From positions 29,334-64,627 of the forward strand of contig CADECM010000020.1 in assembly GCA_902825845.1 (NCBI GenBank): 35,294 bases of DNA, in the 5' to 3' direction. Both the position numbers and the translations under genes were made by a program. A model generated the notes under the pieces. It saw only the letters and a list, made by a program, of their open reading frames with translations, ran no database searches and had not been told where the DNA came from. The DNA comes from an uncultured beta proteobacterium. GTDB taxonomy: Bacteria > Pseudomonadota > Gammaproteobacteria > Burkholderiales > SG8-41. Shown piece by piece: positions 2,166-34,950 of this stretch. Positions within the stretch are counted from its first letter, which is position 1. Every line of letters starts with the position of its first letter.

Positions 2166-3134
2166 TCATTCCAACTTCAGTTTCGCCGCGCGGATGGCAG
2201 TGCCGAAGCGCGCCCATTCGGCGCGGATGAATGTCGCGAATTCCTCCGGTGTGCTGGTCACCGGCTCGCCGCCCTGACGCTGAATTTGCACACGCGCGTC
2301 CGGGTGCGCCATGGCCTTGAGAAAGCCGCCGCGAACGCGCTCGAACAACGGCCGCGGCATGCCTTTGGGCGTCATCAAGCCGATCCAGCCGGTCGACTGA
2401 AAACCCGTAAGGCCCGCCTCGATGAAGGTCGGAACGCTGGGTAATTGGCTGGCGCGTTTTTCGCCGCCACTGGCCAGCGCGCGCAGCCGCCCGCCGTTGA
2501 CATGCGCGAGCGTTGCCGGCAGCGGCGTGATGGTGAACTGCGATTCGTTGGCGATCACCGCGGCCACCGAGGCCCCGCCGCCTTTGTACGGCACATGCGT
2601 CGCCTCGGCGCCGATCGCGAGCAAAAACTGCACACTCGCGAGGTGGCTCTGCGAGCCCGCACCAGCCGAGGCCATGTTGAGTTTGCCGCCCGAATTCCTG
2701 ACATGCGCGATCATCTCTTTGACGTTGGCGGCGGGCAGCGCCGGGTGCACCACCATGATGTTGTTCGTGATGCCGAACAGCGACACCGGCAGCAAATCCT
2801 TGAACGGATCGAAAGCGAGTCTCTTGTGCAACTGCGGCGCGATCACCTGCGTCGCGGTTGCGGTGGTGAGCAGCGTGTAGCCGTCAGGCGCGGCCTGCGC
2901 GGCGAGCTCCATGCCGATCAAACCGCCGGCGCCGGGACGATTGTCCACCACCATCTGTTGGCCCAGCGCTTCGCCGAACTTGCCCGCCAGCGCGCGCGCC
3001 AGGGTGTCGTTGGATGCGCCCACGCCCTGCGGCACCAGCAGGCGGATGGGCCGATTCGGGTAGTGGTCCGCGGTTTGCGCCAATGCCGCGCACGGCGTGG
3101 TTGCGAGGGCGAAAGCCAGTAGCTTCGTTTTCAT
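2166..3134 (-). CDS. Bug/TctC-family periplasmic tricarboxylate-transporter receptor
   Basis: A 322-residue exported solute-binding protein. The first 19 or so residues (MKTKLLAFALATTPCAALA) form a signal peptide. They are followed by YPNRPIRLLVPQGVGASND and VDNRPGAGGLIGMELAAQA, hallmarks of Bug receptors, which deliver carboxylates or small aromatic acids to TctAB permeases. Family length is about 320-330 residues, so the gene is complete. It is divergent from the AhpD-like selenoprotein gene (start at 3214) and shares an 80-base intergenic region with it. Bug genes are hugely expanded in Burkholderiales, so the ligand cannot be inferred. tctB and tctA lie about 1 kb further on the same strand, beyond a gene facing the other way. 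Confidence 0.93.
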   Translation of the reverse strand: MKTKLLAFALATTPCAALAQTADHYPNRPIRLLVPQGVGASNDTLARALAGKFGEALGQQMVVDNRPGAGGLIGMELAAQAAPDGYTLLTTATATQVIAPQLHKRLAFDPFKDLLPVSLFGITNNIMVVHPALPAANVKEMIAHVRNSGGKLNMASAGAGSQSHLASVQFLLAIGAEATHVPYKGGGASVAAVIANESQFTITPLPATLAHVNGGRLRALASGGEKRASQLPSVPTFIEAGLTGFQSTGWIGLMTPKGMPRPLFERVRGGFLKAMAHPDARVQIQRQGGEPVTSTPEEFATFIRAEWARFGTAIRAAKLKLE

Positions 3135-3213: not shown

Positions 3214-3768
3214 ATGGCGCGAATACCGTACCTACCCCCCTCGGCTATCACCGACCCGCAAATCGCCGGTTGGCTCGACGACGCGCGGCGCGAAGGCCGT
3301 CCCGGCCCGGAGAATCAGGCGATACGCGCACACCAGCCCGACGTGATGCGCTCGTTCACGATGACGCGCAAATGGCTGTTCGACGGCAACGCCGGCGTGC
3401 TCGATCACGATTTGAAGGAACTGCTGCGCGCATATATCGCGCACACCATCGAGTGCGGCTACTGAAGCAATCAAGGCACCGCGCGGTCGGCGCGGGATGC
3501 GGGCGGCAAAATGGCCGAGTTGATGAACTACGAGAAGTCGGACAAGTTCAGCGCGCGCGAAAAAACCGCGTTGCGTTACGCCGACGCCATCATGTATGAC
3601 CCGGCGCAGGCCGACGACACGATGTGGCGCGAGCTGCACGCTGAATTCACGCCCGCGGAACTGGTGGAACTCGGCTACTGGGTGGGCTTCACCTTCGGCG
3701 GACAGCGCTGGCTGAAAACGTTGTCGACGCGCCAGGGCGAATACGAAGCGTTTTTGGCTCGCAACTAA
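3214..3768 (+). CDS. Carboxymuconolactone decarboxylase/AhpD-like selenoprotein with in-frame TGA (Sec84)
   Basis: Read through the TGA at 3463-3465, this is a 184-residue CMD/AhpD-family protein. The first part (MARIPYLPPSAITDPQ onward) ends E80-C81-G-Y-TGA84. The same frame then resumes with SNQGTARSARDAGGKMAELM and continues through FSAREKTALRYADAI and ELVELGYWVGFTFGGQRWLK to a TAA at 3766. In the family this motif is CxxC; AhpD uses the second cysteine as the reactive thiol, and here TGA replaces that residue. Immediately downstream is a GGUC-loop hairpin of bacterial SECIS type (separate entry). CMD proteins are helical disulfide reductases, peroxidases or decarboxylases; a CxxU motif points to a thiol/selenol redox role, probably against peroxides. 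A nonsense-mutated pseudogene is the alternative, but the intact downstream frame, the position of the TGA and the hairpin argue against it. The ATG at 3214 starts the conserved family sequence. Confidence 0.86.
3466..3500 (+). promoter_or_regulatory. Candidate bacterial SECIS element of the AhpD-like gene
   Basis: Thirteen bases after the TGA, CCGCGC (3479-3484) pairs perfectly with GCGCGG (3490-3495) around a five-base loop GGTCG (3485-3489). GCA (3476-3478) can pair with TGC (3498-3500) below a two-base GA bulge. The loop starts 19 nt after the TGA and carries GGUC. The well-studied E. coli fdhF SECIS also has GGUC in its loop, about 18 nt after its UGA. This is what SelB recognises to insert selenocysteine. 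The fold was derived by hand. Confidence 0.8.
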
Positions 3769-21257: not shown

Positions 21258-22355
21258 TCAGTTGCGAATGTCCTGCAGAAACCACTCGGTCGGCAGTTCG
21301 CGTCCCAATCCCGCAGCCTTTGCCTTGTGGTACACCAACCCACCCACCGACGAAAATTGCACGCCCCAGTTGCCAATGGTGCGGTAGTGGGTGATCTGAT
21401 CGTTGTGCGTACGACCAGGCGCCTTGCCGCAAAGAATGTCGGTGTACACCGGCCACGCGGCAAGTTTCAAATCCTTGGTCGCGCGCGGCAGGCGCTGTTG
21501 TTGCGCCTCGGTGCCCATCACGAAAGCACCGAGGCTGCCGCCGATTCCCTTGCGGTACATCGCGCTTTCCGGTAGCGGCAGGCCTTCATTGCCCTGCTGC
21601 ACTTTCACGTCAAAACGCGCGGCGACTGCGGCTGAAACTTCATGCGGCCCGAGATTCACCACGTGCATGCCCGGTTCCAGCCACTCGGGCTCGATGGTGG
21701 GCTTGATGCTGTCGGTGCAGGTTGAAAGGATGTCCGCGCCGCGCACGGCTTCGCGCGCGGAATCCACCGCCGTGACGGCGATGCCAAGCCGCTGGGACAT
21801 CTCGTCGGCGAAACGCCCGCGGTTGTCCGGGCTGCGGCTGAACACTTTGACGGTCCTGATCGGCCGCACCGCGCAATACGCTTCCAGAAACGTGCGTGCC
21901 ATGCCGCCTGAACCCAGCATCCCGACGGTGGCTGCATTCTTGCGTGCCAACAGACGCGTGCCGATGCCCGCGGCACCGCCCACGCGCATGTGTTGCAGGT
22001 GGCCGTCGTTCATGATCGCCAGCGGTTCGCCATTGCCGGAACTGTACAAAATCACCAGGCCGCAAAACGTACCAGGTTGCACGCAGTATTTGTTTTCCGA
22101 CACCGAGCCGTCCGCGCCCACCGGCCAGTGCACGATGTCGGACTTGAGTCGCACGGCGTAATAGCCACCGCTCGAGCCTTCCACAGTGCCGAAGCGGTAA
22201 TAGCCGTCTTCGCGATCGCACGGTACATAGGTGTCAATGCGCGGGCGAAAAATCGCCTTGCCTTCGAGCAATCCCGCGAATGCCGTTTCCTGCACCTCGA
22301 TGCATTCGCGCATGCTCAGCACCTGGGCTACGACGTCGTTGTTGATCATCAACAT
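21258..22355 (-). CDS. Ornithine cyclodeaminase/mu-crystallin family protein
   Basis: A protein of about 365 residues of the ornithine cyclodeaminase/mu-crystallin family. These NAD(P)-dependent enzymes include ornithine cyclodeaminase, alanine dehydrogenase and ketimine reductases. It has a Rossmann motif VGMLGSGGMARTFLEAYCAV, the preceding RVGGAAGIGTRLLARKNAAT, and GADILSTCTDSIKPTIEPEW. The start is uncertain: the frame opens at 22385, but the ATG at 22355 or 22349 (MLMINNDVVAQV) fits the family better. An AT-rich IHF-like element lies about 110 bases upstream. The neighbours (glycosyltransferase, topB) give no metabolic clue, so the reaction is not assigned. Confidence 0.85.
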   Translation of the reverse strand: MLMINNDVVAQVLSMRECIEVQETAFAGLLEGKAIFRPRIDTYVPCDREDGYYRFGTVEGSSGGYYAVRLKSDIVHWPVGADGSVSENKYCVQPGTFCGLVILYSSGNGEPLAIMNDGHLQHMRVGGAAGIGTRLLARKNAATVGMLGSGGMARTFLEAYCAVRPIRTVKVFSRSPDNRGRFADEMSQRLGIAVTAVDSAREAVRGADILSTCTDSIKPTIEPEWLEPGMHVVNLGPHEVSAAVAARFDVKVQQGNEGLPLPESAMYRKGIGGSLGAFVMGTEAQQQRLPRATKDLKLAAWPVYTDILCGKAPGRTHNDQITHYRTIGNWGVQFSSVGGLVYHKAKAAGLGRELPTEWFLQDIRN

Positions 22356-22461
22356 GGTCAGTACCGCCAGTAGTATTGGCCGCACCCGGTATCAGAGTGC
22401 GATCACCTGATGCATCGCCGCGCCAACCAATTCAGCCCATCGCCACAACAGCACGATAAAT

Positions 22462-22487
22462 TAATTCAATAAAAACAGATAGTTATG
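22462..22487 (+). repeat. AT-rich intergenic element, copy 6 (IHF-like core)
   Basis: TCAATAAAAACAGATAGTTA overlaps the topB stop codon on the other strand. The core AAACAGATAGTTA has two mismatches to the IHF consensus. It separates topB from the ornithine cyclodeaminase-family gene. Confidence 0.4.
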
Positions 22488-25023
22488 CGGTTTTACGCGC
22501 GCGGGCCGGTGCCTTCCGCTTTGCCGCGGGCTTGTCTTCCGTGGCAGTCTTCGCGCCGGCCTTGGCCTCGCGTGGCGCAAACTCGAACGACACTTTGCCA
22601 TCGGTGCCGCGCACCAGAAACGCCGAAAACGGGCGGCCCTTTTTGCTGATGAATTTGTGCAGCAGATCGGTCTTGCCTTCTTTCAGCAGCTTGGTGACCT
22701 GTTCGGGCTCAATGTTGCGCTGAAGGATGATCTTGCCAGTGCGAAAATCACAGGTGCGCGGCTGCGCGGCGGATTTTTCGCAAATATAGGCCATGCCATG
22801 ATCGTACACGTTGGCGCTGCATTTCGGGCACGTGCCGAGCGGCTCCTTGCCGGTGAAATCGACAGGCTCCGCGTCCTCGTTCGACTGGCCGAAATCAAAC
22901 TCGAAGTTGAATTCGTCATTCAGCTTGATCACCGCCGCGAACGGACGTCCCAGCCGCGAGCGAAAGCCCTGCAGCGGGCCGATGCTCTTTTTGACAAACA
23001 GCTCGTCGATCTCCGCCGGCTCAAATTGCCGCCCGGCGAGAATGCGCCACAGCGAAAAATCGCATTTTTCGCACTGGAATTTCTTGTAGTTTTCCTTCAC
23101 CGTGCCGCCGCATTTCGGGCACTTCGCCTTGAGCGTGGCGTAATCGCCAGGCACGGTCTCGGACTCGTGCGCCTTGGCGCGCTCAACAATATGGCGCGTC
23201 ATTTTGGCGATTTCCTTCATGAACGCGGCGCGCTTCAACTTGCCGTGCTCCATTTCCTTCAGCTTGTATTCCCATTCGCCGGTCATTTCGGGCGACGCGA
23301 GCTCCGGAATGTCCAGCCCGCGCAGTAACGTCAGCAGCGAAAATGCCTTGGGCGTGGCCTGCAGTTCGCGGCCGTTGCGCAACACGTATTCCTCGGCGAT
23401 GAGTTTCTCGATGACCACCGCGCGCGTGGCCGGCGTGCCGAGGCCGCGCTCTTTCATTGCGTCGCGCAGCTCTTCGTCTTCCACCAGCTTGCCGGCGCCT
23501 TCCATCGCCGACAGCAATGTCGCTTCCGTAAAGCGCGCCGGCGGCTTGGTCTGCGTGGCAAGCACGTCAATTTTCTCGGTTTTGGCTTTTTCGCCTTTCT
23601 TGACCGCAACCAGATTGGGCGTGTCACCGTCTTCGGCAGCCGCCTTGCCGTGCACCTCCAGCCAACCCGCGTTGACCAGCACCCGGCCTTCGCTCTTGAA
23701 GGCTTCCTGTTCGACGCGGGTGATGCGCGTGGTGACCATATATTCCGCGCTGGGATAAAACACCGCGAGAAATTGACGCACCACCAGATCGTAAAGCTTG
23801 GTTTCGATTTCGTTCAGCGCCTTGGGCGCCTGCCCGGTGGGGATAATCGCAAAGTGGTCGGAGATTTTTGCGTTGTTGAATATGCGCTTGGTGGGCTTCA
23901 CCCAACCTTGTTTCAGTATCTTCTTTGCAAACGGCGCGTATTCCGATTCCGACAGCACGCCCAGCGTTTCTTTCACCGTGTCGACATAATCTTCGGGCAA
24001 CGCGCGCGCGTCGGTCCGCGGGTAAGTCAGTACCTTGTGTTTTTCGTACAAGGCCTGCGCCAGCGACAACGTGGTGCGCGCGCTGAATCCAAAACGCCCG
24101 TTGGCGGCGCGTTGCAGACTCGTCAGATCAAACAGCAGTGGTGACGCCTGCGTGCTGGGCTTGCTTTCCTCTTCGATTTCGCCGGGCTTGCCTTCGCATT
24201 TGGCCTTGATCGCCTCGGCGCGTTTGGCATCCCACAAACGCTCGGCACGAAGATCGGGGTCGATCTCTTCGTCTTTGGCGTCTTTTTTTGTCTTGGAGAA
24301 TTTCTCGTCGATCCAGCGGCCGGCATACTCGCCCGCGCTGACGCCGAAGGTGGCGTGTACCTCCCAATAATCCTTGGGCACGAAGCGTTTGATTTTTTCC
24401 TCACGCTCGACCAGGATGGCCAGCGTCGGCGTCTGCACCCGGCCCACCGGCGTCTTGTGAAAGCCGCCGCTCTTGGAGTTGAACGCGGTCATCGCGCGTG
24501 TGCCGTTGATGCCCACCAGCCAGTCGGCCTCCGAGCGGCACACGGCAGCATCGGCCAGCGGCAGCATTTCCTCGTCACTGCGCAGATGCTTGAAGCCTTC
24601 CTTGATCGAGCCCGCCGTCATCGATTGCAGCCACAGGCGCTTTACCGGCTTCTTGGTGCCCGCGTGATTGGCGATATAGCGGAAAATCAGTTCGCCTTCG
24701 CGGCCGGCGTCACAGGCGTTGATAATGCCGGTGACGTCCTTGCGCTTGAGTAATTTGGTCAACAATTTCAGCCGCGATTCCGTCTTTTCGATCGGTAATA
24801 GATCGAAATGCGGAGGAATCACCGGTAAATTGGCAAAGGACCACTTCCCGCGCTTGACTTCAAACTCGTCGGGCACCGCGATCTGCACCAGATGCCCCAC
24901 TGCAGACGACAACACAAAATCGTCGCTCTCAAAATAATCGTCGTGACGCTTGAAGCCACCGAGCACGCGCGCAATATCGCCAGCCACGGACGGCTTCTCA
25001 GCGATAATTAGTTGTTTTGACAT
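22483..25023 (-). CDS. topB: DNA topoisomerase III
   Basis: An 846-residue type IA topoisomerase that decatenates and relaxes negatively supercoiled DNA by a single-strand break. The Toprim domain starts MSKQLIIAEKPSVAGDIARV and contains INACDAGREGELIF, whose acidic residues bind Mg2+. TPVGRVQTPTLAILVEREE follows, and the active-site tyrosine is Y334 in LTYPRTDARALP. Near the C-terminus are Cys4-type zinc elements (CPKCGGTVKENYKKFQCEKC and CPKCSANVYDHG), topoisomerase C-terminal repeats (RPFSAFLVRG), and a lysine/alanine-rich tail. It is complete. It lies downstream of dprA, as in many betaproteobacteria, but the small smg/DUF494 gene I would expect between them is not seen. Confidence 0.96.
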   Translation of the reverse strand: MSKQLIIAEKPSVAGDIARVLGGFKRHDDYFESDDFVLSSAVGHLVQIAVPDEFEVKRGKWSFANLPVIPPHFDLLPIEKTESRLKLLTKLLKRKDVTGIINACDAGREGELIFRYIANHAGTKKPVKRLWLQSMTAGSIKEGFKHLRSDEEMLPLADAAVCRSEADWLVGINGTRAMTAFNSKSGGFHKTPVGRVQTPTLAILVEREEKIKRFVPKDYWEVHATFGVSAGEYAGRWIDEKFSKTKKDAKDEEIDPDLRAERLWDAKRAEAIKAKCEGKPGEIEEESKPSTQASPLLFDLTSLQRAANGRFGFSARTTLSLAQALYEKHKVLTYPRTDARALPEDYVDTVKETLGVLSESEYAPFAKKILKQGWVKPTKRIFNNAKISDHFAIIPTGQAPKALNEIETKLYDLVVRQFLAVFYPSAEYMVTTRITRVEQEAFKSEGRVLVNAGWLEVHGKAAAEDGDTPNLVAVKKGEKAKTEKIDVLATQTKPPARFTEATLLSAMEGAGKLVEDEELRDAMKERGLGTPATRAVVIEKLIAEEYVLRNGRELQATPKAFSLLTLLRGLDIPELASPEMTGEWEYKLKEMEHGKLKRAAFMKEIAKMTRHIVERAKAHESETVPGDYATLKAKCPKCGGTVKENYKKFQCEKCDFSLWRILAGRQFEPAEIDELFVKKSIGPLQGFRSRLGRPFAAVIKLNDEFNFEFDFGQSNEDAEPVDFTGKEPLGTCPKCSANVYDHGMAYICEKSAAQPRTCDFRTGKIILQRNIEPEQVTKLLKEGKTDLLHKFISKKGRPFSAFLVRGTDGKVSFEFAPREAKAGAKTATEDKPAAKRKAPARARKTA

Positions 25024-34803: not shown

Positions 34804-34810
34804 GCCGCCC

Positions 34811-34917
34811 GCGCCGAGGAGCGTTGCGACCGGTTCGTTGATTGACACGAACCGGCCAGGCTTGGCGCCGGGTTTGAGCGGATTCATCCGCGTTCCGACC
34901 CCCGCAACGGCGCTCAC
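34811..34917 (+). ncRNA. S-adenosylhomocysteine (SAH) riboswitch
   Basis: The leader of ahcY carries the SAH riboswitch pattern. P1 is formed by GCGCCGAG (34811-34818) with CTTGGCGC (34861-34868). The hairpin CCGGTTCGT/ACGAACCGG (34830-34838 with 34847-34855) follows. The conserved GAGCGTTGCGA segment (34819-34829) pairs in pseudoknot fashion with CGCAACGGCGCTC (34903-34915). SAH riboswitches turn on SAH-hydrolase genes when SAH builds up. The aptamer ends about 34 bases before the ahcY ATG, so it could act on transcription or on access to the ribosome-binding site. Pairings were drawn by hand. Confidence 0.88.
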
Positions 34918-34950
34918 GAACTTTTTTCATAACACTGAAAGGAGCGCGTG

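Follow-up and report, generated by a model that had tools for sequence, protein, structure and literature searches.

Does a TGA codon that interrupts an otherwise continuous reading frame in an uncultured beta proteobacterium mark a true stop, a lesion or a codon for selenocysteine (Sec)? The frame lies in a 35,294-nucleotide stretch of contig CADECM010000020.1 (hereafter the window, meaning this whole stretch), where positions 3214–3768 form a single 184-codon frame whose sole interruption is the TGA at 3463–3465, in the setting E80-C81-G82-Y83-TGA-S85-N86-Q87 (Table 1). Direct reading of the sequence, from ATG 3214 to TAA 3766–3768, agreed with an initial annotation that had described two same-frame segments parted by this TGA alone. 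We conclude, with a probability of roughly 0.93, that UGA codon 84 is likely read as Sec by SelB and tRNA(Sec), guided by a downstream hairpin, in a predicted selenoprotein of the CMD superfamily. We favor this reading because conservation extends to the TGA, to the protein downstream and to the hairpin, in which compensatory changes occur, distant relatives have Cys at the same position, selA, selB, selC and selD are present in the genome, and the protein belongs to the CMD superfamily. Standard annotation would likely truncate the gene at the UGA.

Table 1. Coordinates of the features discussed; positions are those of the window unless a contig of the host genome (G000) is named.
Feature	Position	Strand	Basis or remark
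Predicted CMD-superfamily selenoprotein, coding sequence	3214..3768	+	ATG 3214; 184 residues, Sec assumed at codon 84
C81-G-Y-U84, predicted redox-active CxxU motif	3454..3465	+	Homologue alignment
TGA, predicted Sec codon, residue 84	3463..3465	+	TGA in 49/55 aligned loci, Cys in homologues
Predicted bacterial selenocysteine insertion sequence (SECIS) hairpin	3479..3495	+	6-bp stem, 5-nt loop GGTCG, 13 nt past TGA
Natural stop TAA	3766..3768	+	Sequence reading
TctC/Bug solute receptor, divergent neighbor (context only)	2166..3134	-	PF03401, 213.9 bits
UGSC-family gene, probable further selenoprotein	G000:C6 ~22343-24176 (L068), TGA at C6:23780	-	PF24696

Conservation of the TGA and of the protein around it

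We searched 74 genomes of the same family, that of the host included, and found 70 matches. In each of the 26 matches at 72–99% identity the frame was interrupted by one TGA and by nothing else, and the same held for each of the six matches at 47–53% identity; the copies at 72–82% identity aligned from residue 1, with one TGA apiece. The same TGA was carried by 25 family genomes besides the host's own, a result that bears on whether it could be a sequencing slip. The other 38 matches were free of stops: 37 were at 37–42% identity, a group in which individual codons were left unchecked, and a single match, in genome G009, was at 62%. This last match (G009:C37:62733-62987, locus L165) is a relic of the selenoprotein gene in which only the residues from about 84–92 to the end are left, the first half being replaced by sequence that resembles the end of an ABC-transporter gene. 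A draw of 399 genomes from the order yielded 22 matches, all with one TGA and spread over 15 genomes, and in a draw of 369 genomes from the class the host genome was the sole match. Within the genomes drawn, the subfamily was confined to three families of one order (f1, f6 and f13).

Codon 84 was TGA in 49 and TGC in six of 55 aligned loci, a set that includes some identical contigs from two collections and leaves out three TGA matches from the group of six at 47–53% identity, for which there was no locus. The 38 close copies correspond to 34 distinct coding sequences. The ratio of nonsynonymous to synonymous variation (pN/pS) was 0.227 before the TGA and 0.272 behind it, indicating that purifying selection persists downstream of the codon. 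Decay of the gene, with the TGA as a nonsense mutation or sequencing error, has a precedent in the G009 copy, which has decayed and lost its first half; however, all 26 close copies share this TGA, none has a further stop, and pN/pS behind it is 0.272, so that we regard the probability of this explanation as practically negligible.

To the question of which residue belongs at position 84, the homologues gave a uniform answer. In the alignment of the query with the best 120 of 698 protein homologues, every one of the 121 proteins had C81 and Y83 and either Cys or Sec at 84, with Cys at 84 in 120 of the 120 homologues, and the six loci L012-L017 all had TGC. The presence of Cys in homologues, the retention of the TGA in relatives and the presence of the sel genes together support the proposal of the initial annotation that residue 84 is Sec. 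When 24 Sec rows and 23 Cys rows, chosen from these sequences, were placed in one tree, three changes between Sec and Cys were needed, and well supported branches forced two or more of these; the program issued warnings about long branches and unsettled bootstrap values.

The predicted SECIS hairpin

The hairpin consists of CCGCGC (3479–3484), a loop GGTCG (3485–3489) and GCGCGG (3490–3495), and its spacing and loop, with the loop 19 nt from the TGA, were exactly as first annotated. A perfect 6-bp stem with a loop of 4–6 nt situated 8–18 nt downstream was found at 1.8% of window positions (1,247 of 70,468, both strands), and the same stem with GGTC at the loop at 0.047% (33 of 70,468). A caveat is that the fold is no more stable than its base composition predicts: the 45-nt stretch folded at -15.4 kcal/mol (z = 0.04), and 100 of 200 shuffles were at least as stable. 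The case for the hairpin therefore rests on conservation and covariation rather than on stability.

Both were evident in 39 distinct sequences. The stem was paired in 99.6% of cells, compared with 21–58% in slid controls, and three of its six pairs had changes on both sides; such changes were observed in 13 cells, versus 1.4 in shuffles. The covariation score was reached by none of 500 shuffles, unlike a measure of further pair types, which was reached by 115 of 500; the sequences are related, so these shuffle counts are not probabilities. Codons 90–94, which cover most of the hairpin, had the lowest synonymous variation in the gene (0.12, with a mean of 0.77). The published constraints on bacterial SECIS elements held for all 49 TGA loci (in the window gene, loop 5 nt, stem 6 bp and distance 19 nt), with at least five of six pairs counted as a stem; all six pairs formed in 48 of the 49. 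The check suggested with the initial annotation thus favored a SECIS element, and we predict from these sequence comparisons that the hairpin is one.

These data also bear on whether the TGA is a true stop that separates two peptides, an N-terminal one of 83 residues and a C-terminal one starting at ATG 3511. An open reading frame of 85 residues does begin at this ATG, within the gene, and the corresponding M100 was retained in 34 of 34 distinct close copies. By contrast, the Cys homologues among those listed are single proteins of 181–223 residues, and the spacing between UGA and hairpin is constant across all 49 TGA loci. We consider it extremely improbable that two peptides are made.

Selenocysteine machinery and gene surroundings in the host

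The host genome (6.04 Mb in 207 contigs, completeness 100%, contamination 2.68%) contains all four of the genes whose presence the initial annotation had proposed to check. The genes selA and selB and that for tRNA(Sec), selC, are clustered on contig C6 (24303–28837) and selD is on C64, all scoring above curated cut-offs. Between selB and tRNA(Sec), within L068:9482-10672, lies a thioredoxin-reductase-like gene (TRX_reduct, 212.9 bits, below the cut-off of 343.45) that may be an electron donor for the selenoproteins. SelD is itself broken by one TGA, in HGGG-U-GCK, where a simple scan showed only a weak hairpin. Beside selA, on the opposite strand, is a UGSC-family gene (38.2 bits, cut-off 25) with a TGA in GIGA-U-GACTP.

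Six further CMD genes in the genome had TGA at the second CxxC position, giving CHYU (C4), CQYU (C13), CNYU (C12 and C56), CSYU (C67) and CTGU (C54), each with a hairpin shortly past the TGA. The loop was GGTC or GGTT in C12, C56 and C13, whereas C4, C67 and C54 deviated in the simple scan or in the fold. The genes on C56 and C67 (L072 and L076) are longer, and their TGA lies in the first part; a second part is CMD-like and lacks a clear CxxC. The CTGU gene (G000:C54:5458, L164) is the sole one of the seven CMD genes that is not CxYU. In 13 of 14 genomes of the genus, one or more CMD-type matches had an in-frame TGA, the exception being G066; inspection of where the TGA falls in eight TGA loci among L144-L163, two of them from the host genome, gave CxYU every time. 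Overall, we predict from sequence at least nine selenoproteins in the host: seven of CMD type, SelD and the UGSC-family product. The excerpts of a 2006 survey (PMC1794560) give formate dehydrogenase as the only selenoprotein in Sec-decoding Alphaproteobacteria, Betaproteobacteria and Pseudomonadales; it is in the host, with at least nine predicted selenoproteins as against formate dehydrogenase alone, that the present case departs from such surveys. By the mark of six genes used in the field for a selenoprotein-rich genome, as given in the excerpted text of PMC5029168, the host genome counts as selenoprotein-rich.

These findings also allow us to weigh a selenium-free reading of the UGA as Trp, Cys or another residue, through suppression or an altered code. 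Cys would suit the family, and other systems are able to insert Cys at UGA. The final stop among the 38 close copies, however, was TGA in 21, TAG in 11 and TAA in six, and because TGA still terminates 21 of 38, we take the code to be unchanged. Moreover, read-through without selenium would leave a conserved hairpin of bacterial SECIS type with no role in a genome with complete Sec machinery and TGA at the second CxxC position of seven CMD genes. We regard it as very improbable, and insertion of Sec as the preferred reading.

Upstream of the selenoprotein gene are the Bug gene and an arylmalonate-decarboxylase-type gene (1221–2018). In 15 of 21 loci, a Bug match was located no more than about 250 bp from the selenoprotein gene, an association tempered by the presence of at least 150 TctC/Bug solute-receptor genes in the genome (447 candidates, 150 scored). 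An S-adenosylhomocysteine (SAH) riboswitch was found at 34810–34922 of the window (RF01057, 56.2 bits).

Possible function and relation to known CMD proteins

If the UGA is decoded as proposed, SelB with Sec-tRNA would bind the hairpin 13 nt past the UGA and Sec would be inserted there, giving a product with a C81-G-Y-U84 redox center. Sec84, which takes the place of the second Cys, would be the attacking group; resolution of the adduct by Cys81 would leave a selenenylsulfide, to be reduced again by a thiol donor. The substrate may be a peroxide or another electrophile, and the protein would be a selenol peroxidase or reductase, with peroxide reduction as our first choice.

The initial annotation had assigned the protein to the AhpD/CMD family. 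Membership of the CMD superfamily held (PF02627, 26 bits, above the Pfam gathering cut-off of 23); the assignment to AhpD did not, as the protein lacks the AhpD His and fell below the cut-offs of all eight NCBIfam models reported. These included the TIGR01926 peroxidase-related enzyme (26 bits, cut-off 81.8), the NF053654 GroundWater_YciW (seleno)protein (46.5 bits, cut-off 310), NF041047 (14.8 of 110) and NF041238 (12.6 of 175), the last three all far below; none of the 14 genus genomes had a match to NF053654 above its cut-off. The motif of AhpD proper is E-x-x-C-x-x-C-x-x-x-H. In the AhpD of Mycobacterium tuberculosis, we take this His to be H137, past the second Cys, which is presumably the attacking residue; the structure listing for that protein includes mutant entries H132Q and H137F. 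Unlike the M. tuberculosis protein (1gu9), the window protein has no His at three or four residues past the second Cys/Sec: among the best 120 homologues, 110 have Q and 10 have Y at position 87, and the AhpD-type His four residues on is absent from all 121 aligned proteins, which have G88.

The best sequence match among solved chains was the debrominase Bmp8 (6ohi, E 5.9e-8; also 6ohj), with CMYC opposite CGYU. Enzymes of the Bmp8 type carry out reductive debromination through their CxxC pair. Bmp8 is a Cys enzyme with 17–18% identity to the window protein, and the likeness is one of sequence and fold. Together with the Bug and arylmalonate-decarboxylase-type genes, which suggest catabolic surroundings, this match raises the possibility that the protein is a selenoprotein that serves to dehalogenate reductively or otherwise to attack carbon electrophiles, as in Bmp8, rather than peroxide reduction; we consider this unlikely, though well worth keeping in view. 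A wider proposal is that the CMD fold has been turned into a family of selenoenzymes in the host lineage (seven CxxU genes, a Sec-type SelD and the UGSC gene), and that the window subfamily, without the AhpD His, might be a new selenol catalyst for the catabolism of organic acids or halo-organics, not for peroxide defense. This, too, we consider unlikely.

A further comparison is with Cys-type CMD proteins. Homologues P0002-P0121 and the Acidimicrobiia loci L012-L016 are 55–64% identical to the window protein, of the same length class and with the same C81-x-Y-x84 frame, but have Cys at 84 (TGC in the loci) in place of Sec. An organism was named for five of the 120 listed homologues, in each case Acidimicrobiia or Actinomycetota. 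Two CMD paralogues on opposite strands, about 1–3 kb apart, were seen in L012, L014, L016 and L017 (three of the four titled Acidimicrobiia or Acidimicrobiaceae); in L017 the pair is a CMD paralogue and a piece of one. With Sec here and Cys in relatives at 55–64% identity, the subfamily offers a natural comparison for the benefit of selenium at a CxxC motif that lacks the AhpD His.

Finally, reports of CMD-like and AhpD-like selenoproteins with CxxU go back to 2005, as the excerpts of PMC1088965, PMC2398784, PMC13188914 and PMC9312934 describe, which bears out the statement in the initial annotation that AhpD-like selenoproteins were known. As described in those excerpts, these proteins (COG2128 YciW, PF02627, TIGR01926) share with the window protein the CMD superfamily, the CxxU motif and a bacterial SECIS past the UGA, whereas the window subfamily scores far under the NCBIfam (seleno)protein cut-offs. 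Since CxxU selenoproteins of the CMD/AhpD type are already known, the window gene would represent a new branch of a known kind.
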